Of a stretch of 36,040 bases of DNA, positions 7,082-36,040 are shown piece by piece. The position numbers and the translations under genes are program-made. The notes beneath the pieces are model-generated. The model was given only the letters and a program-made list of their open reading frames with translations. It did no database searches and was not told the origin of the DNA. This stretch comes from an uncultured Cyclobacteriaceae bacterium (GTDB lineage Bacteria > Bacteroidota > Bacteroidia > Cytophagales > Cyclobacteriaceae), in assembly GCA_905479015.1 (NCBI GenBank), contig CAJQKV010000036.1, positions 1 through 36,040 on the forward strand, written 5' to 3'. Positions within the stretch are counted from its first letter, which is position 1. Every line of letters begins with the position of its first letter.

Positions 7082-7714
7082 TTATTGTCTAGATACTATT
7101 TTTAAATGTTGCTCGATCTCATCACAAATTAAAGGGAGGGATTTATCAAATCCATGTTGATTTGAAATGAGCAAGTTTGCCTGATTTTTCAAGGGTAAAA
7201 TATACTTTTTATAAGCGGGCAGGGCATGTTTTTCAAATTGATATATGACCTCATTTAAGGCATAACCTCTATGATGTGAATCCCGGGCTATTCTTCTTTT
7301 GAGCATCACATCCTCTGGAGCCTCTAAAAAAATTTTGAGATCTAATAATTTTGATAATTGGGGATAATAAAAGGTAAATAAACCTTCAACTAGAATCACA
7401 GGACAGGGTTGAATAGTCAGTGTTTTGGCTACAACTTCTTTTTGATTGAATTGATATTCCTTCAGTTCAATGGACTTCCCTGATATTAGTTTTATGAGGT
7501 CAGAATAAAGCCGTTGATGATCAATAGCCTCAGGGAGGTCAAAGTTTTCAACACCTTGTTCATCTTTGACTTGAGCGTCCAAAGGCAAATAATAATTATC
7601 TAAAGAAACCTGAGCTATTTGGTTTTTTGAAAAATGCTGAGTTAACTGATTGGCAAAGAAGGTCTTCCCCGAACCACTCCCACCAGAAATGCCTATGATC
7701 AGTTGAGGGATCAT
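7082..7714 (-). CDS. udk: Uridine kinase
   Basis: A 210-residue P-loop kinase that phosphorylates uridine (and usually cytidine) in pyrimidine salvage. The Walker A motif GGSGSGKT is at residues 11-18. The nucleoside-binding segment SLDNYYLP and the lid region with RRIARDSHHRGY follow the order of the uridine kinase/phosphoribulokinase family, and the length is typical. The ATG overlaps the rdgB stop (ATGA), which indicates translational coupling. Pairing a salvage kinase with a nucleotide-pool cleaning enzyme is sensible, although the two act on different bases. Confidence 0.95.
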   Translation of the reverse strand: MIPQLIIGISGGSGSGKTFFANQLTQHFSKNQIAQVSLDNYYLPLDAQVKDEQGVENFDLPEAIDHQRLYSDLIKLISGKSIELKEYQFNQKEVVAKTLTIQPCPVILVEGLFTFYYPQLSKLLDLKIFLEAPEDVMLKRRIARDSHHRGYALNEVIYQFEKHALPAYKKYILPLKNQANLLISNQHGFDKSLPLICDEIEQHLKIVSRQ

Positions 7715-8283
7715 CTTGATGTCAAATGTGCAAGTAATTTTTTAAGGGCGATACCTCTATGAGAGATTTCGTTTTTTTGAGATACGGACATTTGAGCAAA
7801 AGTTTCCTTAAAGCCATTGGGTTGAAAGATGGGATCATAACCAAATCCTTCGACACCCTCTTTTTCCAAGACTATTTTTCCATGAACGAGCCCTTCAAAA
7901 ACAAATTTCCTCCCGTTTTCATCAAAATAAGTCATGATGGTTTTAAATTGAGCTTTTCTGTCTTTTTGATCGATGAGATTGGCCAATAATAAATCGATAT
8001 TATCTACACTATGTCCGGTTCCAGCATACCGCGCAGAAAATACGCCAGGTTCGTTGTTGAGGGCAGAGACTTCCAAACCTGTATCATCCGAAAAACAAGC
8101 TTTTTGATATTTTTTAAAAATATATTCAGCCTTTATGAGCGAGTTTTCCTCTATAGTACTACCTGTTTCGGGGATTTCCTTTTCATTGAGATCACCTAAG
8201 CCCTGGAGCGTATATCTAGGTCCCAGTGCATTACGTATTTCACTTAATTTATGCGGATTGTATGTGGCAAAAATAAGTTCCAT
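7711..8283 (-). CDS. rdgB: RdgB/HAM1 non-canonical purine NTP pyrophosphatase
   Basis: A 190-residue protein beginning ELIFATYNPHKLSEI, the family signature (T/S-x-N-x-x-K) that binds the triphosphate. The second conserved block is CFSDDTGLEVSALNNEPGVFSARYAG, holding the metal-binding acidic residues, and the C-terminal block is EGFGYDPIF with SHRGIALKKL. It hydrolyses ITP, dITP and XTP to monophosphates to keep deaminated purines out of DNA. I chose the ATG at 8283 over a TTG one codon upstream because its A forms TGATG with the FKBP stop, a one-base overlap; the downstream end overlaps udk by four bases. Confidence 0.97.
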   Translation of the reverse strand: MELIFATYNPHKLSEIRNALGPRYTLQGLGDLNEKEIPETGSTIEENSLIKAEYIFKKYQKACFSDDTGLEVSALNNEPGVFSARYAGTGHSVDNIDLLLANLIDQKDRKAQFKTIMTYFDENGRKFVFEGLVHGKIVLEKEGVEGFGYDPIFQPNGFKETFAQMSVSQKNEISHRGIALKKLLAHLTSR

Positions 8284-8903
8284 CAACGGACATAAAGAGG
8301 GGAAATTTCATACCTGAGCACAGAATAGGGAGAGATGATGTTAGATGGATCACTTGAAGAGCCGAAGCCTAAGGCAGATGGCAACAATACCACAACTTGA
8401 CCCCCAGTTTTCATATTAACAAGGGCTGCCGAGATGGCTTCAAACAAACCATAACTTTGAAGCGATGCAAATAAAGAGGTATACTCTAGGGTCCAACCTG
8501 AAGAGGTATAGGTAAAAGTTAAAGGAGCAAAAATCGGATAAATGTAATACTCAGAAGAATCCGGAATAATGCTTGATTTAAAGACGATGCCATTTGCATC
8601 GTATGCGGTATAATTTATGGTAATGAGATCATTATAATTTATACTGTCGCCCTCTCCAACACTTTGGATCGCATACCTCGCTCCTGAAGCCGTTGTAAAA
8701 ACTGGATCAAGACCATTTTCCTTTATGTAGTTATCTATAGTGAGGCTGTCGGATTCCCATATTTCTTGATAATCAATGGTTTCAATAGCTTCATTTTCCT
8801 CACAAGAAATGAAGACTGAGATTAAAGAGATGATGGATAGCGTCAGTAGGGATTCAACCCATCGATAAGATTTGGCAGCGTTCATATTGTTAGATTTAGA
8901 CAT
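8283..8903 (-). CDS. FKBP-type peptidyl-prolyl isomerase-like lipoprotein
   Basis: A 206-residue protein with an N-terminal basic region, a hydrophobic stretch (about 18-33) and a lipobox-like VFISC cysteine at about residue 34 followed by EENEA, so it is probably lipidated and periplasmic. Residues 85-205 resemble an FKBP domain: VGEGDSINYNDLITINYTAY, then GIVFKSS, then GGQVVVLLPSALGFGS. In Bacteroidetes such lipoproteins assist folding of exported proteins. The usual IP-ANLAYG active-site block is altered here, so isomerase activity is not assured. An in-frame ATG at 8885 is an alternative start. First gene of the run ending in secDF, which fits a role in export. Confidence 0.85.
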   Translation of the reverse strand: MSKSNNMNAAKSYRWVESLLTLSIISLISVFISCEENEAIETIDYQEIWESDSLTIDNYIKENGLDPVFTTASGARYAIQSVGEGDSINYNDLITINYTAYDANGIVFKSSIIPDSSEYYIYPIFAPLTFTYTSSGWTLEYTSLFASLQSYGLFEAISAALVNMKTGGQVVVLLPSALGFGSSSDPSNIISPYSVLRYEISPLYVR

Positions 8904-9107
8904 GAATGAGTTAAAAATTATTGACTTTTATGTTATCGACACGTAATTTTTTGAGATGAATATTTTTCATTTCCACCTTCGGTTGGCAAATTAACGCAAC
9001 GTCTCTGATTAGATGATCCATTGTGTCATTTTTATTTAATTAAATGGCGTATTATAATGTGCATTTTAAGCGGTTGTCGTACAAGTATTTTTTTGAAAAA
9101 AGCACAT

Positions 9108-10145
9108 TTATGAAATTTGAGTTGATCCATATTTTTCTTTAAAATCAAGGGTCAACAATTCAAATTTTTCAACGGTTTCTTCTAGAGAAAGGTATGAAAT
9201 ACCTCCTGAAGCATTTTTATGACCTCCCCCTTCGAAGTGATCGCTTGCAAATTTATTTACGGCAAAATTCCCGGCAGATCGAAAAGATAATTTAACTTCT
9301 CCGGGACCTTCTTTGATAATGGTAGCCATGACAATTCCCTTGATGGATAGGGCATAGTTTACCAAACCCTCAGTATCTCCTTTTTCTAAATCGAACTGCT
9401 GAATATCTTTTTCTGAGATTGAGAAATACGCAATGTTTTTTTTCTGATCAACGATGAGCTTTTCAAGCAGTGAAAAACCAATAAATCTCAATCGGTTGAT
9501 GGTATTGGTGTCGTAAATGGAACGACTTACTTGATTAATATTTGCCCCCAAATCAATTAATTCTGCTACCGTTCGATGTACTTTAGAGGTAGTGTTGGCA
9601 TGCCGAAATGAGCCAGTATCAGTCATAATACCCGCATATAGACAGTTTGCTATATCTGCAGTGATGGCTTTTCTTCCGTCAACTGATAGGATAAAATCAT
9701 AAATTAATTCGGCAGTTGCTGCTGCAGAAGTATCCCAAAGTCGGTAGTCATCAAAATCCTCAGGATCTAGATGATGATCGATCATAACTTTTAATGCGGG
9801 CGACGAGGCCACCGCATCCGCGAGCCCTTTGATTCTTTTGAGACCTGAAAAGTCCAAACAAAATATCAAGGCACAGGATTGAATCATTTCAAGAATTAAA
9901 TCATCATCTGCTGAGTTGAACTCAAGAACCTGATCGTTGCCTGGGAGCCAAGAAATGAAATTAGGATAATCTGTGGGTGTGATTACCTGAACCTCATGAC
10001 CCCTTGCTTTCAGAAAATGAAAAAGCCCAAGAGAAGATCCGAGGGCATCAGCATCAGGACTTGCATGCGTCGTGATGATGATTTTATGGAAATCTTCTAA
10101 AATGGGAATTAAATCAGTAATTGGCTTCATCAATTTTAATTTCAT
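9108..10145 (-). CDS. nrnA: DHH/DHHA1 phosphoesterase, NrnA-type oligoribonuclease / pAp phosphatase
   Basis: The DHH block runs TTHASPDADALGSSLGL, then FCLDFSG, MIDHHLDPEDFDD and GIMTDTGSFRH, giving the metal-binding Asp and His residues. The C-terminal DHHA1 domain carries the RNA-binding GGGHKNASGG. NrnA degrades 2-5 nucleotide RNAs and removes the 3' phosphate from pAp. The open frame extends to a GTG at 10190, but that extension is hydrophobic and unlike the family. I prefer the ATG at 10145, with 10130 as an alternative. It diverges from ndk, with the intervening region holding the ndk promoter. Confidence 0.95.
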   Translation of the reverse strand: MKLKLMKPITDLIPILEDFHKIIITTHASPDADALGSSLGLFHFLKARGHEVQVITPTDYPNFISWLPGNDQVLEFNSADDDLILEMIQSCALIFCLDFSGLKRIKGLADAVASSPALKVMIDHHLDPEDFDDYRLWDTSAAATAELIYDFILSVDGRKAITADIANCLYAGIMTDTGSFRHANTTSKVHRTVAELIDLGANINQVSRSIYDTNTINRLRFIGFSLLEKLIVDQKKNIAYFSISEKDIQQFDLEKGDTEGLVNYALSIKGIVMATIIKEGPGEVKLSFRSAGNFAVNKFASDHFEGGGHKNASGGISYLSLEETVEKFELLTLDFKEKYGSTQIS

Positions 10146-10229
10146 CAATATAATAAAGTAGTAAAAATCATAAGAATTATGGGGAAACACAAAATTTTTA
10201 ATTTGAGTGGCCTAATTATTTAAAATACC

Positions 10230-10237
10230 TACTTTTG
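10230..10237 (+). promoter_or_regulatory. Candidate -7 element for ndk (TACTTTTG)
   Basis: An exact match to the Bacteroidetes -7 consensus TAnnTTTG, 36 bases before the ndk ATG. The nearest TTTG upstream (10202-10205) is 24 bases away, longer than the usual 19-21, so the -33 half is not convincing. Confidence 0.5.
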
Positions 10238-10273
10238 TCACTCTAAAAAATTTACACCTTTTATTAAGCTAAA

Positions 10274-10696
10274 ATGGGATCGACAAAGACCTTTACAATG
10301 ATTAAACCGGATGCCGTTGCTGCCGGTAATTCTGGGGCAATTATGAAGATAATTGAAGCTCATGGATTTGTAATTCATGCAATGAAATTGACGCAGCTCA
10401 CAGCTGCTCAGGCTGGGCAGTTTTATGAAATTCATAAAGAGAAACCTTTTTATAATGATTTGGTGGGCTACATGTCTGGAGGGCCCATTATTCCTATGAT
10501 ATTGGAGAAAGAGAATGCGGTAGAAGATTTCCGAGCACTCATAGGGGCTACTAACCCGGTTGAGGCAGCCGAGGGAACCATACGTAAGTTATTTGCTACC
10601 TCTATCTCGGCCAACGCGATACATGGGTCTGATTCTGATGAAAATGCTTTGATTGAAGGGGATTTCTTTTTTTCAAATTTAGAAAAAACGAAATAA
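10274..10696 (+). CDS. ndk: Nucleoside diphosphate kinase
   Basis: A 140-residue protein of normal family length. It begins [13 protein letters not shown], where the lysine contacts the phosphates, and ends with the signature [12 protein letters not shown]. The phosphohistidine is His117. It equalises the pools of nucleoside triphosphates by ping-pong phosphate transfer in the cytoplasm. Monocistronic between divergent nrnA and convergent scpA (40 bases between stops, without a clear terminator hairpin). Confidence 0.98.
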
Positions 10697-10736
10697 TTTA
10701 AAAAGTATGGCGTTTCGAGCGATGGGGCCCTAGCTT

Positions 10737-11516
10737 TTACAGGCTACTGATTCGGGACTCTACCCAAAAGTTATTAAAACCTTCACCAAGATGAAGCATT
10801 ATTTTTTTGAGCTGAAGTAATTCTAGGAGGGCTAAGAAGTTGAAAATTGCGAGTATTTTTTCCGGTTTTTCGGCCAACAATTCTTCAAAAGAGATACGCT
10901 GATTTTTGCTTACATAAAGCTTTTGAATCAAGACTTCTTTTTGACTTTCAATGGTGTAGGGATAAGGAATGACCTGGTGGATAGGTTTGTTTTTTTGTAG
11001 TTCATAGCTATTCAGAACTTTGTGAAATACTTTCATAAGCTTGTAAAGATCTAAATCCTGAACTTCGGCATCAACATTTACCAAAGCGGCAATTTTTTTA
11101 ATCTCTATCGCTAGATTGCCACGGTTTTCTCTTTGGAAACGTGTGGCTTCTAAGTTAGAGAGTTGCTCAATAACAGATTTGTATTTTTTATATTCCAAAA
11201 GGTGTTTCACCAATTCCTCTCGAGGATCAATTTCATTGCCTGATTCATCTAAAACAGGTCTGGGAATTAACATTTTTGCTTTGATGCGCATTAGGGTAGC
11301 GGCTACCAAAATAAATTCACTGGCCACTTCAACATTCATTTTTTTCATTTGATGCAGATAGTCAAGAAAATCATGGGTAATGGTTGCAATTGGAATATCG
11401 TAAATATCTAATTCATCACGTTCAATAAAAAAAAGCAGAAGATCAAAAGGCCCTTCGAAAAGAGGGAGTTTAATTTCAAATTTTGTGCGTGGATCGTTAA
11501 TTATGTAATCAGTCAT
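10737..11516 (-). CDS. scpA: Segregation and condensation protein A
   Basis: About 259 residues from the ATG at 11516; an upstream TTG at 11528 would add four. The N-terminal signature FEIKLPLFEGPFDLLLFFIERDELDIYDIPIATIT is clear (read as overlapping blocks PLFEGPFDLLL and DELDIYDIPI). The middle helical segment LMRIKAKMLIPRP follows, and a C-terminal winged-helix kleisin end comes last (about 200-259). ScpA is the kleisin that bridges the SMC heads and works with ScpB in chromosome compaction and segregation. scpB is not in the window. It diverges from dxs across 111 bases. Confidence 0.95.
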   Translation of the reverse strand: MTDYIINDPRTKFEIKLPLFEGPFDLLLFFIERDELDIYDIPIATITHDFLDYLHQMKKMNVEVASEFILVAATLMRIKAKMLIPRPVLDESGNEIDPREELVKHLLEYKKYKSVIEQLSNLEATRFQRENRGNLAIEIKKIAALVNVDAEVQDLDLYKLMKVFHKVLNSYELQKNKPIHQVIPYPYTIESQKEVLIQKLYVSKNQRISFEELLAEKPEKILAIFNFLALLELLQLKKIMLHLGEGFNNFWVESRISSL

Positions 11517-11559
11517 CAGCTTAAGCAAAGATGCATGATTCGGAGAACCAAAAAAAGAT

Positions 11560-11567
11560 TATTTTTG
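11560..11567 (+). promoter_or_regulatory. Candidate -7 element for dxs (TATTTTTG)
   Basis: An exact TAnnTTTG match in the scpA/dxs divergent region, 60 bases before the dxs ATG. No TTTG is found 19-21 bases upstream, so this is a tentative call. Confidence 0.4.
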
Positions 11568-11627
11568 TAAATAACCAAAGAGTTCGTTAGATTGTATTTG
11601 CGACTTTTTGTCATAAGATAATCAACC

Positions 11628-13535
11628 ATGCAAATTAAACAGGGTCCCCTTTTGTCAAACGTAGATCATCCTACAGATTTACGGAAATTAGAGACACAAC
11701 AGCTGCCTCAATTTAGTGAGGAATTGAGAAATTACATTGTTGATCATGTCGCTACCTATGGTGGACATTTTGGAGCCAGTTTGGGTGTGGTTGAACTGAC
11801 CGTAGCCCTACATTATGCGTTTAATACGCCAATAGATCAACTGGTATGGGATGTGGGACATCAGGCCTATGGGCACAAAATATTAACAGGAAGAAAATCT
11901 CATTTCCATTCTAATCGTGTCTATGGTGGGTTGTCTGGGTTCCCAAAGCGTGATGAAAGTGAATTTGATGCTTTCGGGGTAGGACATTCTTCTACAAGTA
12001 TATCCGCAGCGTTAGGGATGTCCATAGCTAATCAGAGAGAAGGAAAGGGCCGACAGCATATCGCGGTCATCGGGGATGGAGCCATGACTGGAGGGATGGC
12101 TTTTGAGGCCATGAACCATGCAGGCGTCTCTAACTCCAACCTCATTATTGTATTGAATGATAATTGCATGTCCATTGATCCCAATGTGGGGGCTTTGAAA
12201 GAGTATCTTACGGATATTAGTACTTCTCAGATTTACAATAAATTTCGTGATGAGGCATGGAAAATTTTAGGGAAAGTCAGTAAGTTTGGCCCCAATGCGC
12301 AGGAGCTCGTGGCCGGTGTAGAAAACAGCATAAAGACTTTTCTACTTAAACAAAGTAATCTATTTGAGTCTTTCAATCTCAGATATTTTGGACCGGTAGA
12401 TGGGCATGATGTGAACCATTTGGTGCATGTCTTCAATGATCTCAAACAGATCCCAGGCCCAAAAATTTTACATTGTATCACGAAGAAGGGTAAAGGGTAC
12501 GAGGCGGCAGAAAAGAATCAAACCAAATGGCACGCTCCGGGTACTTTTGATAAAATTTCGGGTGAGATTCATAAAACTTCTTCCTTGACCCCACAACCCC
12601 CCAAATATCAAGATGTATTTGGCCATACTTTAGTCGAATTGGCAGATGAGAATCCAAAAATCATGGGAATTACCCCTGCCATGCCTTCAGGATCCTCTAT
12701 GAATATTATGATGGAGGCATATCCTGAGCGGTCATTTGATGTGGGTATTGCCGAGCAGCACGCCGTTACCTTTTCTGCGGGTTTAGCCACACAAGGTTCG
12801 ATACCTTTTTGTAACATTTATTCAACATTCATGCAGCGGGCATATGATCAGGTGATTCACGATGTTTGTGTTCAAAATTTACATGTGGTATTTTGTCTAG
12901 ATCGAGCAGGGTTCGCTGGAGCAGATGGTCCTACGCATCACGGTGCCTATGATATTGCCTTCATGAGGTGCATACCTAACCTGATAGTTTCTGCACCCAT
13001 GGATGAATCTGAGCTTAGAAATTTGATGTATACTGCCATGCAGGAAGGGCGTCCTTTTTGTATCCGGTACCCAAGGGGTAAAGGTGTTTTAGTCGATTGG
13101 AAAACCCCTTTTGCTAAAATTGAAGTGGGAAAGGGTCGTAGGATAAAAGAGGGAAGAGATATCGCCCTACTCACTTTTGGTACGGTAGGAAATTATGCGC
13201 TGACGGCTCATAAAGAATTGGAGAAAATTGGCGTAACTGCCGCTTTGTACGATATGCGTTTCGTCAAACCCTTAGATACAGCTTTATTGCATGACGTATT
13301 TAAATCATACGAGCATGTGATCACCATTGAAGATGGTTGTCTTATGGGTGGGTTTGGAAGCGCCGTAGCTGAGTTTATGGTGGACCATGGTTATCAAGCA
13401 AAACTAGAGAGATTGGGAATTCCCGATCGAATGGTAGAGCATGGAACACAGCTAGAATTGCATAAAGAATGTGGATTTGATCCTCAAGGCATTTATCGAG
13501 CAGCGGTAAAAATATTGGAGATCGAAATTGCCTAA
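11628..13535 (+). CDS. dxs: 1-deoxy-D-xylulose-5-phosphate synthase
   Basis: A 635-residue TPP enzyme that condenses pyruvate with glyceraldehyde 3-phosphate, the first step of the MEP isoprenoid pathway. The thiamine diphosphate site is visible as GDGAMTGG (149-156) through NDN (177-179). An early HFGASLGVVELTVALHY block precedes WDVGHQAYGHK. The transketolase domain carries the catalytic-glutamate region GIAEQHAVTFSAGLA, with DRAGFAGADGPTHHG after it. Full length and intact. Convergent with kynureninase, with 20 bases between the stop codons. Confidence 0.98.
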   Translation: MQIKQGPLLSNVDHPTDLRKLETQQLPQFSEELRNYIVDHVATYGGHFGASLGVVELTVALHYAFNTPIDQLVWDVGHQAYGHKILTGRKSHFHSNRVYGGLSGFPKRDESEFDAFGVGHSSTSISAALGMSIANQREGKGRQHIAVIGDGAMTGGMAFEAMNHAGVSNSNLIIVLNDNCMSIDPNVGALKEYLTDISTSQIYNKFRDEAWKILGKVSKFGPNAQELVAGVENSIKTFLLKQSNLFESFNLRYFGPVDGHDVNHLVHVFNDLKQIPGPKILHCITKKGKGYEAAEKNQTKWHAPGTFDKISGEIHKTSSLTPQPPKYQDVFGHTLVELADENPKIMGITPAMPSGSSMNIMMEAYPERSFDVGIAEQHAVTFSAGLATQGSIPFCNIYSTFMQRAYDQVIHDVCVQNLHVVFCLDRAGFAGADGPTHHGAYDIAFMRCIPNLIVSAPMDESELRNLMYTAMQEGRPFCIRYPRGKGVLVDWKTPFAKIEVGKGRRIKEGRDIALLTFGTVGNYALTAHKELEKIGVTAALYDMRFVKPLDTALLHDVFKSYEHVITIEDGCLMGGFGSAVAEFMVDHGYQAKLERLGIPDRMVEHGTQLELHKECGFDPQGIYRAAVKILEIEIA

Positions 13536-21093: not shown

Positions 21094-23691
21094 ATGAGAT
21101 CTTTTTTAATAACTTTCGTTAGTTTAATACCTGCTTTTTGTTTTTCGCAAATAGATCACTGGGAGAGCGTAGTCCTACCGGGAGATGACTGGCATTACAC
21201 GGTACCAAGTAGTCAACCGAGTGCTTTATGGAATCAGCTGGATTTTGACCATTCAAATTGGATTCAAGGGATGTCAGGATTTGGTTACGGAGATGATGAT
21301 GATGCTACTTTAGTTCCTGAAAATACGATCTCAGTTTACTTGAGAAAAACTTTTGAGATCATTGATCTTAATGCAATAGAAAGGTTACGATTAGATATTG
21401 ACTATGATGATGGATTTGTGGCGTATCTCAATGGCCAAGAAATCGCAAGAGATTTGGTTTCGGGAGTGACGCCTACTTTTGATCAGTTAAGCGATGGCCA
21501 TCATAACGCATTATTACCTGATGGTCAAAAACCAGAATATTTTGATGTCGATGTCGATTTTTTGGTAGAGGGAACCAATGTCATTGCCGTACAAGTACAC
21601 AATCAATCAAGTACCTCATCTGATATGACGGCTTTACCGGTATTATCATTGGGCATCAATAATACTGAATATACTTATCGAAGTACACCGAGTTGGTTTT
21701 TAGCGCCTATTTATGTGGATTTTCAATCATCTAATTTACCTATTGTAGTTATAGAAACGGTCAATAATCAATCGATTCCTTCAGAACCTAAAATTGCGGC
21801 AAACATGATTATTGTGGATAAGGGCGCAGATCTAAGAAACGATATTTCGGATGTAACCAACCTTGATTATTTAGATTTTAAAGGGGCCATAAAGATAGAA
21901 GTACGTGGTTCTTCCTCATCTCAATTACCTAAAAAGCAATATGCTTTGACTACTTATGATAGTCTGGGTCAGAAAGAGGACGTGAGTATATTAGGAATGC
22001 CCAAAGAGAATGATTGGATTTTAAATGGGATTGCCTACGACTCTTCGCTGATCAGAGATTATTTAAGTTATCAACTGTCTCATCAAATAGGTCAATATGC
22101 CTCGAGAGGTCAATATTGTGAAGTGATGCTGAATGGAAATTATGAAGGGATCTATCTTTTTCAAGAGAAATTAAAGGCCGATGATAATCGGATTAATATT
22201 AAGAAAATTCAACCAGAGGATCTTTCATTACCCAATCTTACAGGAGGTTATATCACCAAAACAGATAAAATTGAGGGTTCAGATTTGGAAGCTTGGAGCA
22301 TGCCCAATTATGGTGGATGGGGGAGTAGTTTTGTCCATGAATATCCAAAATCTACGGAGATCAAACCCTTGCAGCACGAATATATTAAAGGTGAGTTTGA
22401 GCGTCTTGCAAACACATCTAGCAATAAAAATAGTTCTGTTAAAGACGGCTATCCATCTGTGATAGACGTTCCTTCATTTATTGATTTCATGATTTTAAAT
22501 GAGTTTTCAGCCAATGTAGACGGTTATCAATTCAGTACATTCTTTCATAAAGACCGTAATGGAAAGTTACGTGCAGGACCGATTTGGGATTTCAATTTAA
22601 CCTATGGCAATGATCTCTTTATGTGGGGGTATGATCGAAGTTTCACCTACGGATGGCAGTTTGATGATGGGGGAAATATGGGTGCAAAATTTTGGAAAGA
22701 TTTATTTGATGATCCAGTTTATAGATGTTATTTAAATAAAAGATGGCAAGAACTTACTGATCCCGGGATGCCACTCAATACGCTGAAAGTAATGGACTTT
22801 ATCAATGAAACGGTACTTCACATTTCAGAAGCAGCAGACCGACAAGAAGCTTTATGGGGGACCACAGGCATATTTGATCAGCAAGTCAGCGAGCTGAAGA
22901 GCTTTATCAGTGATAGGAATACTTGGCTATCCGGTCAATTGACATCGACAGCATCCTGTGCATTGGTAACGCAGCCGGCACTTGTGATTACTAAAATCAA
23001 TTACCATCCCTTGGCTGAAGAGAATGAAGTTTCAAGTGATTATGAGTTCATTGAAATCACCAATGTGAGTGATGCATCTGCCGAACTTACTGGACTTTAT
23101 TTGGGAGAGTTGGGGCTTACCTATCAATTTCCAAAAGGCATATTCATGGGGGCCCATAGTACTTTATATTTAGCTAGTGAGACGAATTCTTTCGAAGAAC
23201 GTTATGGATTTACTCCCTTTGATGAATTTACCAGGAGCTTATCGAATCAAAGTGAAAAAGTTCAATTAATGGATGGCTATGGAAATATAATAGATGAGGT
23301 TTTGTATTCAGATGAGGCTCCTTGGCCTACTGAAGCAGATGGAGCAGGGGCTTATCTATCCTTAAAGGAGGTTGATCTAGACAATAATGAGGGGGCCAAT
23401 TGGGAAGGACAATTAATCTTACCCGTTTATGACAATATTTTGGGTAGCATCAATACCCTACAGCCTTTGGTGTCCGTCTTTCCTAATCCAGTTCAGGAGG
23501 TTTTACACATCACTGCTAGTGGGAGGATTAAAGTCGTTAATGTTTGGAATATTGAAGGTAAATGTGTCGGGCAATACAGGTTTGATGTTAACAAAGCTGT
23601 GATGATATTAAACAGTTATCAAGCGGGAATCTATTATCTCGAAATTTATACTGAACAAGGGAGATTCTTAAGAAAACTAATCAAAAATTAA
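21094..23691 (+). CDS. Secreted CotH-family protein with lamin-tail domain and type IX secretion signal
   Basis: 865 residues. A signal peptide ends near AFCFSQ (residue 19). Residues 25-185 are a galactose-binding-like beta domain (LRLDIDYDDGFVAYLNGQEIARD). Residues 210-600 are CotH-like, with EVRGSSSSQLPKKQYAL, then NGNYEGIYLFQEKLK and GPIWDFNLTYGN, the conserved Asp/Asn of the kinase-like fold. Residues 628-760 are a lamin-tail domain (EFIEITNVSD). The last 80 residues, from SVFPNPVQEVLHI, are a type A C-terminal domain that directs export by the type IX system. CotH proteins phosphorylate spore-coat proteins in Bacillus; the target here is unknown. Monocistronic, closed by a strong terminator. 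Confidence 0.92.
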   Translation: MRSFLITFVSLIPAFCFSQIDHWESVVLPGDDWHYTVPSSQPSALWNQLDFDHSNWIQGMSGFGYGDDDDATLVPENTISVYLRKTFEIIDLNAIERLRLDIDYDDGFVAYLNGQEIARDLVSGVTPTFDQLSDGHHNALLPDGQKPEYFDVDVDFLVEGTNVIAVQVHNQSSTSSDMTALPVLSLGINNTEYTYRSTPSWFLAPIYVDFQSSNLPIVVIETVNNQSIPSEPKIAANMIIVDKGADLRNDISDVTNLDYLDFKGAIKIEVRGSSSSQLPKKQYALTTYDSLGQKEDVSILGMPKENDWILNGIAYDSSLIRDYLSYQLSHQIGQYASRGQYCEVMLNGNYEGIYLFQEKLKADDNRINIKKIQPEDLSLPNLTGGYITKTDKIEGSDLEAWSMPNYGGWGSSFVHEYPKSTEIKPLQHEYIKGEFERLANTSSNKNSSVKDGYPSVIDVPSFIDFMILNEFSANVDGYQFSTFFHKDRNGKLRAGPIWDFNLTYGNDLFMWGYDRSFTYGWQFDDGGNMGAKFWKDLFDDPVYRCYLNKRWQELTDPGMPLNTLKVMDFINETVLHISEAADRQEALWGTTGIFDQQVSELKSFISDRNTWLSGQLTSTASCALVTQPALVITKINYHPLAEENEVSSDYEFIEITNVSDASAELTGLYLGELGLTYQFPKGIFMGAHSTLYLASETNSFEERYGFTPFDEFTRSLSNQSEKVQLMDGYGNIIDEVLYSDEAPWPTEADGAGAYLSLKEVDLDNNEGANWEGQLILPVYDNILGSINTLQPLVSVFPNPVQEVLHITASGRIKVVNVWNIEGKCVGQYRFDVNKAVMILNSYQAGIYYLEIYTEQGRFLRKLIKN

Positions 23692-23962: not shown

Positions 23963-24175
23963 TTATTTTTCTCTCCTTTTGTTTGATCTTTTACCTGTTC
24001 TTGATGCTTTTTTCTTCCTTGGCATTTCTTTCGAAGCGAGAAATGATGTTCCTTCATTTAGCTCTAGGTCAGTTAAAACGGCAGTTTCGCTAAGGCTTAA
24101 TGAGGGATCATTAGGAGAGGCCTGAATCATTGAGAACATAAAAAGTGTTGTAAAAGCGGCTATAATTTTTTTCAT
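23963..24175 (-). CDS. Small exported protein with a very basic C-terminal tail
   Basis: 70 residues. A signal peptide MKKIIAAFTTLFMFSMIQAS is followed by an acidic, Ser/Thr/Leu-rich middle (about 21-50). The last 19 residues contain 11 Lys or Arg (EMPRKKKASRTGKRSNKRREK). No cysteines and no domain. A mature product of about 50 residues with opposite charges at its two ends could bind polyanions or associate with itself, but that is inference. It stands alone: no same-strand gene lies close on either side. Confidence 0.65.
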   Translation of the reverse strand: MKKIIAAFTTLFMFSMIQASPNDPSLSLSETAVLTDLELNEGTSFLASKEMPRKKKASRTGKRSNKRREK

Positions 24176-24419: not shown

Positions 24420-25124
24420 TTATTGTGCGGGACTTGTGGCAGATAAAATTTGACCTAAAACGATGGTTTCCCATCCATCGGGCATGATTTCATCTAAGTT
24501 AGTTTCTGGCCAAGCACCCGTACCTTTCACATCATTAGCCAATACTTTGATGGCCGCCGCTCTTGTCGAAAATCCATTCCAGGTCATAACATTGGTAGTC
24601 TGGTTGGCATTGACAGGCAGGAATTTAGCTCCCACACCCCATCCTTTTAAACCCGTCTTGCTCATATTTTTTTTATGATAAGCCATCCATGCCTTCTCGC
24701 CTTTCAAATATCCCTCTAGATTATTGGCATGACCAAAGTTCATAATTATATATTCGAAGGCCTCTGTGGGAGCAATTTCCATTTGCCTTTGGTAGTAATA
24801 GATACCGGATGCTTCTCTCAAATCGCGATACAATATGTCTGGATCAACCCCTACGATGGCTTTGGTATTGGACCACCAATCGGTGCTTTCATTCATAGCA
24901 TCAATACTTGCAAAGCCATTAACAAAAATATAGTTGTAGCCCGTATTGGCCTCACCTATGGTTCCATCCAACTTGATGAGTGCCCAGTTGACCAGTTGGC
25001 CTTTGTTGACGGCATCTTGCGCAACTTTTGAGACATAATCTACTTCAATTTTCTCAAAGAGCGCTTGATTTTCAGGGGATATCCGAACGCCATTTAATTG
25101 GTAAACGGCTTGCGCTTGACTCAT
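24420..25124 (-). CDS. Tandem ferredoxin-like domain protein (paralogue 1), signal peptide broken by an in-frame stop
   Basis: 234 residues from the ATG at 25124, clearly paralogous to the next gene upstream. Shared residues include FEK..VDYVSKVA, a KGQLVNWALIK turn, YNYIFVNGFASIDAM and WW in the first half. The second half shares NNLEGYLKG, KKNMSKTGLKGWGVG and TW..FST. The two halves resemble each other, so I infer two tandem ferredoxin-like domains. Continuing upstream in frame gives MSQAQA preceded by CLVL, then a TAA at 25137-25139, then MKNILIFIGL from an ATG at 25169. A single T-to-A change (TTA to TAA) would explain this. As it stands the product starts after the hydrophobic core of the signal and would stay in the cytoplasm. 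It is probably a damaged gene, or there is a sequence error. Confidence 0.7.
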   Translation of the reverse strand: MSQAQAVYQLNGVRISPENQALFEKIEVDYVSKVAQDAVNKGQLVNWALIKLDGTIGEANTGYNYIFVNGFASIDAMNESTDWWSNTKAIVGVDPDILYRDLREASGIYYYQRQMEIAPTEAFEYIIMNFGHANNLEGYLKGEKAWMAYHKKNMSKTGLKGWGVGAKFLPVNANQTTNVMTWNGFSTRAAAIKVLANDVKGTGAWPETNLDEIMPDGWETIVLGQILSATSPAQ

Positions 25125-25230
25125 TAAAACTAGGCATTACAATCCTATAAATATTAAAATATTTTTCATGATTTTTGGTTTATTAAGGTTTAAAAAAAAG
25201 TTTGAAAATTTAATGGTTTATCAACCTATT

Positions 25231-25995
25231 TTATTGTGAAGAGTTTGCGATCATCTGAAAAATAGGCATCATCATAAAACCATCGGGATTGTAATCCGTC
25301 ATTTTAGATTTTTTCAATAAATCTGCAGGCATCTCATAACCTATTCGATACTTCATCAATTCTTCTAAAGTATTGAACATGTCCCATGTAGATACTTTGG
25401 CCCAATTGGTACCCAATGGAGCTAGTTTTCTACCAACGCCCCAATTGACCATACCCATGCGTTCCATATTTTTTTCGAAATAGGGCTTCCACAACGTTAA
25501 ATTTTCTTGGATGAAGCCCTCTACATTTTCTGGACGAGCAAAATTGAATTGAATAAAACCTCCTAGGCCTTTGGCAATACTGCCTTCATCTAGATAGATA
25601 TGTCTTGAATCAGCCGTCCAGGTATGGGTTGCACTCAGGGCACTGACAAGGGCTTGTTCTTCTGTACTAAGTACATCAGCGGCATGATTCCACCAGTTAT
25701 TTTTTTCACTAAGCATTGCCTCAATACTGGCATTTGACTGAACGAATACATAGTTATATCTTTCCTCATCGTCAATATTGTCCATGGCCACATGTTTCAG
25801 AAATGCCCAAAAGGTGATATCTCCTTTTTCAGCAGCTTGCTTGGCCACTTTTTGCATGTACATAGATTGAACTTTTTCAAAGTCGTCGGTATTGCCTTCT
25901 ATTCTTACAAAATGCATTGAGTACACACCATACTCTTGTGCTTGAATCATGTAGGTACTCAAGACGAGTACCATTGATATAAATAATTTTCTCAT
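25231..25995 (-). CDS. Exported tandem ferredoxin-like domain protein (paralogue 2)
   Basis: 254 residues. A signal peptide MRKLFISMVLVLSTYMIQAQ is clear. The mature protein has two similar halves: (1) YGVYSMHFVRIEGNTDDFEK, AAEKGDITFWAFLKH, YNYVFVQSNAS and NNWW; (2) FIQFNFARPENVEGFIQEN, PYFEKNMERMGMVNWGVG and VSTWDMFNT. This beta - helix - beta(W) - beta pattern fits the dimeric alpha-beta barrel (antibiotic-monooxygenase-like) superfamily, repeated twice. No catalytic residues can be named. It heads a two-gene group with paralogue 1, 61 bases before that gene's original start. A -7 element lies just upstream. Confidence 0.85.
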   Translation of the reverse strand: MRKLFISMVLVLSTYMIQAQEYGVYSMHFVRIEGNTDDFEKVQSMYMQKVAKQAAEKGDITFWAFLKHVAMDNIDDEERYNYVFVQSNASIEAMLSEKNNWWNHAADVLSTEEQALVSALSATHTWTADSRHIYLDEGSIAKGLGGFIQFNFARPENVEGFIQENLTLWKPYFEKNMERMGMVNWGVGRKLAPLGTNWAKVSTWDMFNTLEELMKYRIGYEMPADLLKKSKMTDYNPDGFMMMPIFQMIANSSQ

Positions 25996-26438
25996 TTTTA
26001 TGTTGGTTTAAAGATTTTAAATATCAAATATATAGAAAAGTGCTTTAATGGTTAAATATTTTAGATGATTGTATGTTGAGGCATAGGTGTTCATACCCGT
26101 AGAAGTACCCTAGCAAATACCTTCTTCTTTTACCAATTGTTCATACAGTCATCTCTTATGCCCAAGAAGGTAAAAAACATCCATATTATCCTTCCTTAGT
26201 CCATGGGAACATGGCCCTCTAAAGTCATCTTAAAGAAGAGTTATCTTTAGCTTTAAATATAACATGAGATCTGATTTATTTATCAATATTTTTTACTTGT
26301 CTCTGAGCTATTGTAATTAATCATTCTATTGGGAGTTGCCTTTTTCTTAAGCTAGACCCTATTATTTCACATTCAGATTTTATTTATTATCTTGTCAAAT
26401 TCATCTTATGAAGGAATTATCAGTTTAATTTGCTGCTA
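25996..26438. other. Non-coding divergent region of about 440 bases
   Basis: Separates paralogue 2 (minus) from the J-domain-like gene (plus). It holds the -7 element described separately and a weak palindrome CCATG-GGAA-CATGG near 26203. Two competing short pairings occur: ACCTTCTT (26119-26126) with AAGAAGGT (26164-26171), and TTTTACC with GGTAAAA. I find no open reading frame with protein-like composition and no RNA gene I can name. Confidence 0.5.
26025..26032 (-). promoter_or_regulatory. Candidate -7 element (TATATTTG) for paralogue 2
   Basis: CAAATATA on the plus strand reads TATATTTG on the minus strand, an exact TAnnTTTG match 30 bases before the ATG at 25995. No TTTG is found at the expected -33 distance. 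Confidence 0.45.
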
Positions 26439-27479
26439 ATGAAAGCGAAGTATAAAACCCTTGGGCTTAAGAAAGGAGCTTCTCAGGAAGAGATTCAAGA
26501 AGCTTATCAGCGGTTAAGTAAAGAGTTGGATCCTGTTGCCAACAATAATGAGACCTTTTTTGTAGAGAAGTTTGCTAAAGTGAAGGCAGCTTACTCAGCT
26601 TTATTGACTAAGAAAGATCACGATGAGGATGAAATACCGGTAAAGGAACTGAATTGGTTTCTTAAACTCTTCACCATCGGCGATAAGTTTAGTTTTCGAG
26701 ATTTCTTTGATCGGGCAAAAAAAATGACGGTTGAGTTTATTGCCATCTTTTTTGGTGTGTTTTTATCATTGGCGGTGGATCAAAAAAGAGAGGACAGTAA
26801 TCACCGTGCTGACAATATCAACAACATGAAGAAATTGAAAGTTGAATTACAGGATATTCTCGTTTACACAGATGAATATATTGAAGGCGTGGCATGGTTT
26901 AATGATCTTTTTCAGCGGCAATATGACCGTTGGGATGAGAACAGTGATTCTGTCTTTTTGGATGTAATGGGAGAAGGGGATGAAGCTTTTGCATTTGCGC
27001 CACTGAGTTATTATGAGCAAGCCATGCCCTATGATCCCCCTAAAGTGACATATGAGTCGGTACAGCTTGATGGGACGTTTCGATTTCTTGATGATACTTT
27101 GGAGCATAAACTGACTCAAATTTATTCTGGAAGCACATTATTTTATATCAAGGAAAATGCCTACGCGAGAGATCAAGCAATTGTTGATGGTTTTGTGGAA
27201 CGAATATCTGATCGTTGGGTAGAGGAGTTAGGTGACGTTAAAACTCAGTATAATTATTTTTGGAAGGATAATAGAGAATATATTCAAAAGGATTATTATA
27301 TGAATCACAATGTTTTTCGAAGACTTGGAAATTTTAATCAAATCACAGCTCAGCTAGATGAACATAAGGCAGGTGTGGAAGGAGCTATCGCTTTATTAGA
27401 TTCAATTTTGACATATAAGCAGAAAGAGATTGAAATTATTTATTGGGTGGTTGATTTTGATTTTTTGCAAAAGAAGTAA
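26439..27479 (+). CDS. Degenerate J-domain fused to a membrane-anchored domain (DUF6090-like)
   Basis: 346 residues from the ATG at 26439; an upstream TTG at 26430 would add three. Residues 1-58 look like a DnaJ J-domain (KYKTLGLKKGASQEEIQEAY, then RLSKELDPVANN). The essential HPD tripeptide aligns to DPV, so it should not stimulate an Hsp70. A single membrane segment (about 92-110, VEFIAIFFGVFLSLAVDQ) follows. Its EFIAIFFGV...DQKRED form is typical of a Bacteroidetes membrane family I associate with DUF6090. The C-terminal 235 residues are charged, helical and probably periplasmic. I infer the J-like part acts as a cytoplasmic interaction module. It interrupts the cluster of paralogues and lies on the opposite strand. 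Confidence 0.75.
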   Translation: MKAKYKTLGLKKGASQEEIQEAYQRLSKELDPVANNNETFFVEKFAKVKAAYSALLTKKDHDEDEIPVKELNWFLKLFTIGDKFSFRDFFDRAKKMTVEFIAIFFGVFLSLAVDQKREDSNHRADNINNMKKLKVELQDILVYTDEYIEGVAWFNDLFQRQYDRWDENSDSVFLDVMGEGDEAFAFAPLSYYEQAMPYDPPKVTYESVQLDGTFRFLDDTLEHKLTQIYSGSTLFYIKENAYARDQAIVDGFVERISDRWVEELGDVKTQYNYFWKDNREYIQKDYYMNHNVFRRLGNFNQITAQLDEHKAGVEGAIALLDSILTYKQKEIEIIYWVVDFDFLQKK

Positions 27480-27620
27480 CATTTTTTTTGTGAGGGGTGT
27501 GATATTTTTTTATCTAAGGGGTGAGTAACCTTTGAACTAAGGACGCCCAGTTGAAATAAATCAGATAAGTTCTTGACTTAAAGCTTCAGTACCATTTTAT
27601 TAGTTAAATTTCTTTTAAAG

Positions 27621-28364
27621 TCACCTAACAGACATTACTTTTCGAAGAACGGCGCGATCGCGAAGGGCCCTGATATCCATCATGGATTGATAATTCTTAT
27701 CTGCATCGACGGCAGGCATTGATGATGCTTTGATGTAATCCGAATATTTGGCATACCAATCCACGGTCAGGTAATTCCAATACAAGTCAGTACCATACTT
27801 GTCTATTCTTTTTTGTAAAGTCCAACCTGTCCTAAATTTTTCATCAGGCATGGTAGACGTGGATAAGTCAATTTCCATATTTTCAAAAGTCTTGAATTTA
27901 CCTTCCTTGACTTTCATGAAATTTACCACCATAAATTCATCAGGGATACTATTGGTATTTGAAATACTTTTAATGGTGGTAATGATATAATCCCCAATAA
28001 TATCTCGACTTTTAATATTCTCCTCATAGAAGTTTTCAAGATCCCCATCGGTCATATCAGGAAAAACTTTTTGCATATTAACGCCCGAGTAAAGACTGTC
28101 CATCTTAGATAGATCCACCAAGGTGACAATGACATGCGTAAAAGGTGTTTGGCGAGAATTGACGACTTGCCATAAATCCCAACCATTGATGATTCCATCT
28201 TCAATGCGTTGCTTGTGGAGGCGTGCAAATTTTTGTGTTAGATTTTCACGATAATTACTTCCTTCTTTGGCTTTGATGAAAGTGAGTCTGAGGTAAGCAT
28301 CATTTTCTTGACCAAATAAATTTAGGCAGAAGCAGATGGATAAAGTAAGTATTAAATATTTCAT
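27621..28364 (-). CDS. Exported tandem ferredoxin-like domain protein (paralogue 3)
   Basis: 247 residues. The signal peptide MKYLILTLSICFCLNLFGQ is clear. Two repeats are unusually easy to see: the first has LRLTFIKAKEGSNYREN, then IINGWDLWQVV and FTHVIVTLVDL; the second has MVVNFMKVKEGKFKTFE, then RTGWTLQKRID and YWNYLTVDWY. Both read strand (F-x-K-x-K-E-G), helix, strand with GW-x-L, strand, as in dimeric alpha-beta barrel domains. Function unknown. It stands alone: 223 bases with a terminator separate it from the next group upstream. Confidence 0.85.
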   Translation of the reverse strand: MKYLILTLSICFCLNLFGQENDAYLRLTFIKAKEGSNYRENLTQKFARLHKQRIEDGIINGWDLWQVVNSRQTPFTHVIVTLVDLSKMDSLYSGVNMQKVFPDMTDGDLENFYEENIKSRDIIGDYIITTIKSISNTNSIPDEFMVVNFMKVKEGKFKTFENMEIDLSTSTMPDEKFRTGWTLQKRIDKYGTDLYWNYLTVDWYAKYSDYIKASSMPAVDADKNYQSMMDIRALRDRAVLRKVMSVR

Positions 28365-28453
28365 TGAAGGGATCTTTTGGTATCAATATATTACATCTTT
28401 TGGGATCGATCAAAGATTTTAGCAAAAATTGAATGTATGTCGAAATAAAAGTT

Positions 28454-28483
28454 TTAAAAATGAATCCTTAATACAAGGATTCA
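28454..28483 (-). terminator. Intrinsic terminator after paralogue 4
   Basis: TGAATCCTT (28461-28469) and AAGGATTCA (28475-28483) form a perfect 9-bp stem with a 5-base loop. On the minus strand it is followed directly by TTTTT. It lies about 105 bases after the stop of the gene ending at 28588. Confidence 0.75.
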
Positions 28484-28587
28484 AGAAGGCTCTTCAAAGA
28501 TTTATTTGGGAGTAATGTCTGATCCTTTTTTTATATATTGACTGATTTGAAACTGAATCCTTGAGTTCAATCAGATGCTGAGACCCA

Positions 28588-29310
28588 TTATTTTTGGAGT
28601 ACCCTTATCTCATCGTATCTGCCGTTGGTATAGGTTTCAAGTACCTCTGCGATGTCTCTTCTCCAGCTACCCATGCCATTGATTTCTTCATAACTGGCAG
28701 CAAAATTTTCAGGTAGGCCATTGCTCTTTTCAAATCGCGTAAATGATTTAAAAGGATAGACCAATGAGATATCCTCACCATTTTCAGAGCGGAAAGGGCT
28801 GACATATACCCGACGTACTATGGATGCATTTGTGGCGACCAATACTTCTTTGATTTTGGTGATGGCCTCCAGTACTTTTGCCATACTATTGGCCTTACTG
28901 TTCAATTTGAAGGTTCTGATCAAAAGATAATCTGAACTGCCGAATTCTGTTGGAGTATAACTGGCCTCCCAGTGAAGTTGTGCATGCTTAATCTTTTCAT
29001 CCGTGATGTAGCTTTGGATATTTTTACCCCAATCTGCCATGTGTGCGGCATCAGGTTGTTGGTCTAAATCGGCATAGGTCATAGGCCCATCTAACCAAAC
29101 AAATTTTCCGGAATTGGGTCCCGTCAAGATACTGTAAAGACTGGCTGTGCTTTTGCCTCCCGTATGATATTTTGCATTATGTAATTTTACACCTGAGATT
29201 AATTTACCCTCTAATTTTTTATTAGGAGTCAGGATTATATTTTCATAGATCATGGTTTCCTGAGCCATCAAAGAGGTTGTAAACATTAAAAATAGAATTA
29301 AAAGTCTCAT
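28588..29310 (-). CDS. Exported tandem ferredoxin-like domain protein (paralogue 4, divergent)
   Basis: 240 residues. The signal peptide MRLLILFLMFTTSLMAQ is clear. The first half (about 18-110) contains ENIILTPNKKLEGKLISGVK and a W-rich segment with MADWGK; the second half contains SDYLLIRTFKLNSKANSMAK and SLVYPFKSFTRFEK. The size, signal and double alpha-beta pattern match the other family members, but sequence identity is low and the assignment is an inference. It follows paralogue 5 by 32 bases, so the two are co-transcribed, and it ends at the hairpin at 28454-28483. Confidence 0.8.
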   Translation of the reverse strand: MRLLILFLMFTTSLMAQETMIYENIILTPNKKLEGKLISGVKLHNAKYHTGGKSTASLYSILTGPNSGKFVWLDGPMTYADLDQQPDAAHMADWGKNIQSYITDEKIKHAQLHWEASYTPTEFGSSDYLLIRTFKLNSKANSMAKVLEAITKIKEVLVATNASIVRRVYVSPFRSENGEDISLVYPFKSFTRFEKSNGLPENFAASYEEINGMGSWRRDIAEVLETYTNGRYDEIRVLQK

Positions 29311-29342
29311 AACGTGGTTGTTTTAGTTGATAAAAATTTAAA

Positions 29343-30023
29343 TTAATTCCAGCTTTTGGCCAGTTTTCTTGTCATGGTTTTGATTTGTTTTATTTCTCCA
29401 CGGTCTTTTAAGTATTTCTCCCAAGCCATGGACTCTTCTTTGGTGGTAGGATTTGATCCTAACAGCTCCTTTAGATTGGCTCTTTCTACAAGGGTATAAT
29501 GGGTAATACCATCTTCCCTTCCGCTAATCACGGCTCCAATGGCCCTGTAATTATTTGGCTTGGTGTTTGCCCATAGCTCTAACGCGGCTGCATTTCGCTT
29601 AGTTGGGTTTTCGACATGATCAAGTATCAGATATTCAATATTGTCTTTATTCGGCGAACCCGTTGAAACATCACCCCTTCCGGCATAGCGGCCTCTAGGT
29701 TCCATATGGTTTCTTATTTTCTCCAACATAAGTGAAAAATCAGCATTTCTTGTAAAGTTACTGGTCTCATTTATATCATCAATAGTTCCTATCACTTGAA
29801 AGGTATGGGTCACGTCCGAACTTCCATTGAACATCATTTTGTAGAGATTGTAAGTGATACCGGTGGGGATATTTGCCGGTTTTGAAAAATAATCGTCTAA
29901 AATCTGAATGATGGTAGATTCATTTTCGTTGGGCACATGCCAATCATAATCCATCCAGGCGGGTTCTTGTGCTTGGGCACTAAAAAGACAGAGTGTCGTA
30001 AAAAAAGTAATAAGTAATTTCAT
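29343..30023 (-). CDS. Exported tandem ferredoxin-like domain protein (paralogue 5, divergent)
   Basis: 226 residues. The signal peptide MKLLITFFTTLCLFSAQAQ is clear. The mature protein has two comparable parts: the first contains DYFSKPANIPTGITYNLYKM and THTFQVIGTIDDI, and the second contains NIEYLILDHVENPTKRNAAA and THYTLVERANLKELL. Both show a strand, helix, strand, THxx-strand order also seen in paralogue 3 (FTHVIVTLVDL). Family membership is inferred from layout, size and location. It is the first gene of the pair with paralogue 4, and lies 69 bases downstream of the gamma-glutamylcyclotransferase-like gene. Confidence 0.8.
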   Translation of the reverse strand: MKLLITFFTTLCLFSAQAQEPAWMDYDWHVPNENESTIIQILDDYFSKPANIPTGITYNLYKMMFNGSSDVTHTFQVIGTIDDINETSNFTRNADFSLMLEKIRNHMEPRGRYAGRGDVSTGSPNKDNIEYLILDHVENPTKRNAAALELWANTKPNNYRAIGAVISGREDGITHYTLVERANLKELLGSNPTTKEESMAWEKYLKDRGEIKQIKTMTRKLAKSWN

Positions 30024-35980: not shown

Positions 35981-36040
35981 TCCTCCTTAGCTCAGTTGGT
36001 TAGAGCATCTGACTGTTAATCAGAGGGTCCTTGGTTCGAG
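35981..36040 (+). tRNA. tRNA-Asn (anticodon GTT), 3' end cut by window edge
   Basis: The acceptor strand TCCTCCT is followed by TA and a D arm GCTC-AGTTGGTTA-GAGC. The anticodon stem TCTGA/TCAGA encloses the loop CTGTTAA with anticodon GTT at 36015-36017. The variable loop GGGTC and the 5' half of the T arm (CTTGG-TTCGAG) follow. The 3' acceptor strand is outside the window. Confidence 0.95.

Follow-up and report, generated by a model that had tools for sequence, protein, structure and literature searches.

The top structural match of the proteins described here, 2pgc (JCVI_PEP_1096685590403), is a marine-metagenome protein from the novel families of the Global Ocean Sampling; its structure was solved by the Joint Center for Structural Genomics (JCSG) and released in 2007. 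PMC2557142 counts 2PGC among the structures from novel ocean families, and we found no function for it among the literature matches listed. Other counterparts are 3mcs (FN1347) and 3f44, both putative monooxygenases, and the chlorite dismutase/HemQ family, which carries a conserved proximal His in its second domain and includes periplasmic chlorite dismutases. Related ABM-like folds, as well as SnoaL-like folds, are familiar from the tailoring of aromatic polyketides inside cells. Here we describe five genes, P1 to P5, clustered in 36,040 nucleotides of DNA (the window, which is the entire contig C36, CAJQKV010000036.1, of a 2.93-Mb genome of an uncultured marine Cyclobacteriaceae bacterium, GCA_905479015.1). 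P2 and P4 are predicted to be exported proteins built from two tandem ferredoxin-like domains of the dimeric alpha-beta barrel type, a fold in which small molecules are often bound, and P1 and P3 are assigned the same fold type by homology.

Fold, repeat and export

The five genes occupy 24420-30023 on the minus strand, encode products of 226 to 254 amino acids and fall into three groups (P2 with P1, P3, and P5 with P4), a layout that the first-pass annotation had described and that the list of open reading frames (ORFs) bears out. The gap between P5, which lies upstream, and P4 is 32 bases, and that from P2 to the P1 frame is 61.

24420-25124, minus strand: P1, 234 amino acids; P2-like group, tandem alpha-beta-barrel type by homology; ORF without signal peptide
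25125-25169, minus strand: remnant of the P1 signal peptide, with one in-frame TAA
25231-25995, minus strand: P2, 254 amino acids; predicted exported tandem alpha-beta-barrel protein (AlphaFold and Foldseek)
27621-28364, minus strand: P3, 247 amino acids; predicted to be exported; internal repeat clearest of the set
28588-29310, minus strand: P4, 240 amino acids; predicted exported tandem alpha-beta-barrel protein; conserved H44, N45, H49, H90 and D93
29343-30023, minus strand: P5, 226 amino acids; predicted to be exported; internal repeat, with a conserved His in each half (H73, H175)

AlphaFold models of P2 (17-sequence alignment, pLDDT 83.6, pTM 0.80) and P4 (38 sequences, pLDDT 91.2, pTM 0.85) each consist of a beta-alpha-beta-beta-alpha-beta unit repeated twice in tandem, and the two predicted folds do not differ. 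In Foldseek searches of the PDB, 2pgc is the top match of both (E 2.4e-8 for P2 and 6.7e-9 for P4), in an alignment of about 205 residues that spans the two domains; its marine origin is a further likeness, but it is only 9-14% identical to P2 and P4 in the structural alignment. Common to the 50 listed matches of the two models are 3mcs, 3f44, 3dtz, chlorite dismutase and coproheme decarboxylase, as well as the monooxygenase PenE and an anthrone-oxidase-like protein. The match to 3mcs and 3f44 extends over both domains, although sequence similarity is weak and their own function is putative. Chlorite dismutase and HemQ align over the length of both models (TM-score about 0.4-0.6), but they give no profile match, and their heme-ligand His is not seen in P1-P4. 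Based on these models, and on homology to P2 (with which P1 shares 30% identity), P1 to P4 are supported as tandem ferredoxin-like proteins of the dimeric alpha-beta barrel type. The first-pass annotation had proposed this fold for all five exported proteins, and here the outcome does not extend to P5, whose fold evidence consists of a P5-type profile match to 3mcs across both halves (E 0.0071) and an internal repeat.

None of P1-P5 reaches a Pfam cut-off, and NCBIfam returns nothing for them at E up to 1. The ABM cut-off (PF03992) is likewise not reached, the best values being E 0.066 for one of 24 P3-type and E 0.025 for one of 38 P4-type members, and at E 0.1 there is no match among the 19 P1/P2-type or 18 P5-type members. 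At the thresholds used, neither P1-P5 nor the group members match the chlorite dismutase/HemQ family in Pfam. DUF6854 (PF21614) matches the second domain of two of the 18 P5-type members (best E 4.9e-4), but at 20.8 bits against a cut-off of 27 and without a match for P5 itself; our literature search found no paper naming it. We attribute three other subthreshold Pfam matches to chance, namely those to fructosamine kinase (3 of 24 P3-type members, best E 1.6e-4, with P3 at 0.0091), to GP88 (P2, E 0.14) and to NIPSNAP (1 of 38 P4-type members, E 0.016). No description of such a family appears among the literature matches listed. The family is large and has received little annotation; the release of 2pgc, which has the same fold, dates from 2007.

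The division of each protein into two tandem halves, also read in the first pass, holds in all four types. Profiles of the N- and C-terminal halves score 46.8 (P1/P2 type), 100.5 (P3), 31.7 (P4) and 47.9 (P5) against one another, above the maxima of 25 column-shuffled controls each (16.5, 15.8, 14.7 and 14.3, respectively), with match probabilities of 94.7%, 99.0%, 75.9% and 95.6%. Between types, hhalign links the P1/P2 profile to the P3 profile at 99.2% with signal peptides trimmed. Apart from that pair, the whole-protein homology between groups (83-99%; P1/P2 against P5 stood outside that comparison) proved to be mostly a matter of signal peptides: after trimming, in a comparison for which the P4 and P5 types were also given more rows, P3-P4 stands at 60.8% and P1/P2-P4, P3-P5, P4-P5 and P1/P2-P5 stand at 0.6-9.7%. 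Against reversed templates, which reach a maximum of 16.8 over 28 pairs, 18 of the 28 forward scores are higher. We consider the common ancestry of P1-P3 with P4 and P5 likely, not proven by sequence, the signal being weak without the signal peptides.

The N termini of P2-P5 were recognized by eye as signal peptides ending before Gln, with no lipobox. In P1, the frame from an upstream ATG at 25169 contains a single in-frame TAA inside the signal peptide, which is why the listed ORF lacks one; the four signal peptides and one broken one of the first-pass annotation are thereby accounted for. Among 96 full-length members of the loci used, a hydrophobic stretch followed by Gln is found in 89 by a loose and 59 by a stricter pattern, and a lipobox-like motif is found in 1; these are raw counts, which do not include a background rate for the pattern. 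Such signal peptides are consistent with the Q-rule of Bacteroidetes (PMC5837995). The cluster proteins would leave the cytoplasm through the Sec pathway, for a final location that may be the periplasm or the cell exterior.

Conserved residues in the four types

The conservation counts given here include near-identical orthologues from the genus and are thus not independent. As to the alignments, A1 holds 19 rows, with near-identical and weakly matching loci left out; A2 holds 24 rows out of a longer list; A6 omits the fragments L106 and L135; and A8 also omits L125 and L136, which contain unknown bases (L, G and C numbers are our handles for loci, genomes and contigs).

Each group has its own conserved residues, and it is plausible that the ligand pockets differ accordingly, as the first pass had supposed. 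In the P1/P2 group, W63 and W185 are conserved in 19/19 and N81 in 18/19; in the P3 group, W62 and W181 are conserved in 24/24; and His is absent from the conserved columns of both. The P5 group carries one His per half, H73 in 18/18 and H175 in 17/18, the latter a second-domain His and a candidate equivalent of the proximal His of chlorite dismutases.

The P4 group is distinguished by H44, H49 and H90 (36 of 38 each), together with N45 (33), D93 (30), W94 and W216 (38 each). These three are its only conserved His residues, and the second domain has none at a level of at least 70%. In the P4 model, H44 is near the end of the first helix, H49 is just past that helix, and H90 and D93 are at the start of the helix preceding the fourth strand; based on this topology, the His and Asp residues should lie at the same end of the first domain. 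That they form a metal site is a guess from the model.

Copy number, turnover and neighbourhood

By group profiles, the genome of the window encodes 15 full-length members, P1 included: 3 of the P1/P2 type (P1 and P2 among them), 2 of the P3 type, 6 of the P4 type and 4 of the P5 type, plus two partial P3-type copies. Two of the P4-type genes stand in tandem on contig C35 (L249:5972-7689), and about 2.7 kb from them is a gene (L249:10370-10657) for a protein of DUF1330, which we take to be a single-domain barrel family. Single-protein searches of 196 sampled genomes of the family, the window's own included, found relatives of P2 in 20, P3 in 64, P4 in 22 and P5 in 6, and all 6 of the last belong to the same genus. 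At the phylum level (395 genomes, again with our own), where the P4 and P5 types were searched, the P4-type profile was found in 22 and the P5-type profile in 2; these may be undercounts, because scoring covered only 6-7 candidates in each genome. Scanning named genomes with a single 9-residue motif gave 40 P4-type loci, 38 under Bacteroidota names and 2 under Chlorobiota, a set biased to members that retain this motif. The copy-number survey that the first pass had called for therefore supports its expansion but not a purely lineage-specific one: relatives of P3 recur in the family and the P4 type recurs in the phylum; the P5 type is narrow.

The same locus is found in L103-L106, which come from two metagenome-assembled genomes (MAGs) of Flammeovirgaceae bacterium UBA4465, one Flammeovirgaceae bacterium and one uncultured Cyclobacteriaceae bacterium. 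Outside the genus, L141 (uncultured Marinoscillum, AG-343-C10, by its name presumably a single-cell genome) holds seven members of all four types in one single-strand run (7678-13122, gaps of 20-105 bases), in the order P5-type, P4-type, P5-type, P4-type, P1/P2-type, P3-type, P1/P2-type. The second of its P5-type proteins is 34% identical to P5, and one of its P1/P2-type proteins joins the P1 group in the tree, with modest support (85/84) and long branches. In L107 and L119, a P4-type gene is followed by a P2-type gene.

Within the genus, intact copies appear to be under purifying selection, with ratios of nonsynonymous to synonymous substitution (Ka/Ks) of 0.04-0.18 for P1-P5 against genus relatives; neighbouring genes give comparable values (aldehyde dehydrogenase 0.06-0.09, CotH 0.12-0.16). 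P4 has the lowest ratio of the five against L103 and L104. The row for P1 against L106 was dropped, as it matched the P2 paralogue; Ks exceeds 2, and is saturated, for P1-P3 against L105; and two rows use fragments of broken genes. The cluster also varies in content. P1 is broken in four of the six genus genomes, in different ways (the window, L103, the G167 copy and L106), and is intact in L104 and L105; P4 is broken in one of the six (G041); and P5 is present at the locus in three of the six, its start in L105 being ambiguous, as the first ATG falls within the protein. The window is 88% identical to L105 from 31307 to 28604 (creatininase-P5-P4; L105:2-2704) and 66-73% identical beyond, from P3 on, a mosaic that suggests exchange of the P5-P4 block between species. 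By eye, the same pair of transposase-like genes lies near members at two loci of G041 (L106:0-1006 and L259:11433-12763), and this pair is a possible agent of rearrangement.

SnoaL-like proteins (PF12680) with lipoprotein-like N termini lie beside some members; the five proteins of the window themselves stay below the ABM cut-off. A SnoaL-like gene lies 27 bp after the P4-type/P2-type pair of L119, 19 bp before the P4-type gene of L124, and, in L270, 31 bp before a P4-type gene and 45 bp after an ORF weakly resembling the P4-type second half (14.4 bits). In L258 one stands, with another ORF, between P1/P2-type and P3-type genes, 124 bp from a member; in the window's own genome (L254, contig C10) one adjoins a P3-type fragment; and L261 too has SnoaL-like neighbours. 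In L141, 2.1 kb upstream of the seven-gene run, is a lipoprotein-like fusion of SnoaL_2 and ABM (4809-5597), both above the Pfam cut-off. A Pfam match at E 0.01 was required, which dropped three L261 candidates, and three seeds were left out; of the seven hits that were counted, 2 lie within 50 bp of a member, compared with 11 of 686 other genes (p 0.005), and 3 within 150 bp, compared with 56 of 686 (p 0.014). The association of SnoaL-like proteins with members is suggestive only.

Other neighbours were noted at these loci. In L119, after the SnoaL-like gene comes one with a copper amine oxidase N2 domain (L119:6738-7226), truncated at the contig end. In L261:1-13001, from the Marinoscillum genome, a P3-type gene is surrounded by several genes for SnoaL-like proteins or lipoproteins, of which only two match SnoaL_2, both below the cut-off. 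An iterated SnoaL model drifted to lipoprotein signal peptides and peptidases, and its counts were not used. A thioredoxin group beside P4-type genes (L110, L118, L137, L131) looks mostly like inherited synteny of close relatives, as do MsrB-like and flavin oxidoreductase genes at five Lutibacter loci and a glutathione-peroxidase-like group (L132, L133, L134), and we did not read them as functional clues. Two further features lie within the cluster itself.

26430-27479, plus strand: DnaJ-domain gene between P2 and P3, with a hydrophobic, membrane-like segment (by eye)
28461-28483, minus strand: terminator-like hairpin 3' of P4, 10 pairs with a T-rich tail

A 28% identical relative of the DnaJ-domain protein, lacking the DnaJ domain, lies beside P1/P2-type genes at a second locus in the genus (L023:928-1815). 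The hairpin is a weak signal, because such sites are no commoner in the window than in shuffled sequence (4 found, 4.8 expected). Adjoining the cluster (21094-23691) is the gene for a CotH-type protein, which carries a lamin tail domain and, at its C terminus, a sorting domain. Downstream of P1 are small, exported-looking proteins with Lys/Arg-rich tails (window 23963-24175; L104:8746-9347; L105:10902-11620), which form a tandem pair in L104 and in L105. The contig end truncates a tRNA at 35981-36040, which scores 41.6 bits with Rfam and is absent from the ARAGORN output.

Proposed role and its alternatives

What might such proteins do? The explanation that best fits the genes, the repeat, the predicted P2 and P4 folds, the paralogue numbers and the recurrence of the cluster, and one to which we give an even chance, is that these are extracytoplasmic fused-barrel proteins that bind or, for some, modify small molecules. 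Each would fold its two ferredoxin-like domains into an intramolecular (pseudo-dimeric) alpha-beta barrel, and its pocket would bind small organic molecules, whether periplasmic or extracellular; we regard this role as the most likely because the barrel offers a pocket. Some members may modify their ligand in the manner of the cofactor-poor ABM-type oxygenases. We posit that P4 is probably enzymatic, since its relatives across the phylum retain the His/His/His/Asp set and its Ka/Ks is the lowest against L103 and L104; this set, at one end of the first domain, could hold a metal or act in catalysis. P1, P2, P3 and P5 would be diverged partners serving other ligands, and the exported SnoaL-like lipoproteins are possible partners. 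We can also imagine a more specific version, which we consider unlikely: a tailoring system of marine Bacteroidota outside the cytoplasm, in which fused-barrel ABM-like proteins, exported, clustered and grown to about 15 copies in a small genome, work with SnoaL-like lipoproteins to tailor small molecules. P4 would then be a novel enzyme of the dimeric alpha-beta barrel superfamily, dependent on a metal or on His.

Several observations weigh against this explanation. The similarity to 2pgc is moderate (TM-scores of 0.50-0.58 by query length) and therefore speaks for a common fold and not for close kinship, and 2pgc is absent from the sequence-profile matches up to E 10. The two exceptions in the P4 group, both L141 P4-type proteins, lack the P4 His set, and HNxx[FY]H is missing from all five other P4-type proteins of the genome, so that P4 alone retains this motif within the genus among those examined. 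A single member is all that is found in 33 of the 36 P4-type loci outside the genus (the DNA is short for some), and neighbouring genes vary widely in most genomes. At wider distances, SnoaL adjacency stands at 3/7 within 500 bp (p 0.14) and 4/7 within 1,000 bp (p 0.09), and three of the seven SnoaL hits fall below the Pfam cut-off. Finally, 10 of the 24 half comparisons between groups are equalled by at least one of 25 shuffles, including all four of P1/P2-type with P4-type, and one reversed self-comparison reaches 28.4, above most of the half scores between groups.

Could the proteins be carriers instead, holding hydrophobic or pigment-like molecules in exported, lipocalin-like pockets that expanded for different ligands without catalysis? 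We find this possible, if somewhat unlikely, and it stands above all for P1-P3, where the conserved aromatics (W63/W185 and W62/W181) are invariant. The five P4-type paralogues without the His set fit it as well, and so does ovorubin, the pigmented egg protein of the apple snail, which P4 matches in structure (9uaj, rank 27, E 7.6e-6), although that match is one of fold only. Against it, P4 and 36 of the 38 aligned P4-type proteins retain the polar His set. A heme-bound pocket is another thought, given that chlorite dismutase and coproheme decarboxylase are in the listed matches of both models, that periplasmic chlorite dismutases exist, and that the P5 group has its second-domain His in 17 of 18. 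Yet the Pfam searches, at the thresholds used, gave no match to the chlorite dismutase family; P4-type proteins lack a second-domain His at the level of at least 70%; and His is not among the conserved columns of the P1/P2 and P3 groups. For P1-P4, we regard heme enzymes resembling chlorite dismutase as unlikely, and exported heme enzymes or heme-binding proteins of that or the coproheme decarboxylase kind are highly improbable as a general account.

Are P4 and P5 related to P1-P3 at all, or are these three exported families that converged on the same size and a common fold? The shrinking of most profile scores between groups once signal peptides are removed (with row sets also enlarged) and the reach of the shuffles into 10 of 24 comparisons speak for separate families. 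We judge this quite unlikely, given that P2 and P4 have the same top structural match, that the P3-type N half against the P4-type C half (32.3; shuffle maximum 16.8) and the P4-type C half against the P5-type N half (23.4; 16.0) beat all 25 shuffles, and that L141 again has all four types together. Birth and death in the cluster (P1 broken in 4/6, P5 at the locus in 3/6, P4 broken in 1/6) and the mosaic block common to the window and one relative might also betray a part in biological conflict or in variation of the surface, played for instance by shields, decoys or immunity-like proteins with fast-changing numbers. Such a role is very unlikely in our estimate: intact copies are under purifying selection, the P4 type is phylum-wide and mostly solitary in the loci seen, and the two database searches made, of plasmid records with P4 and of phage records with P2, gave no match.

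With small-molecule binding or modification outside the cytoplasm as the preferred reading, what would the cluster mean for its hosts? A 2.9-Mb genome maintains 15 copies, under purifying selection and with recurrent clustering, and yet the five genes of the window carry no annotation above a Pfam cut-off. According to PMC10877868, the MAGs whose SusC-like expression is high during phytoplankton blooms include Cyclobacteriaceae UBA4465, and this bloom clade would presumably be the same group as the UBA4465 genomes carrying the locus. If small molecules are indeed processed or trapped outside the cell by these proteins, they would add to marine surface chemistry a layer that has been overlooked, and 2pgc would gain a testable biological setting.

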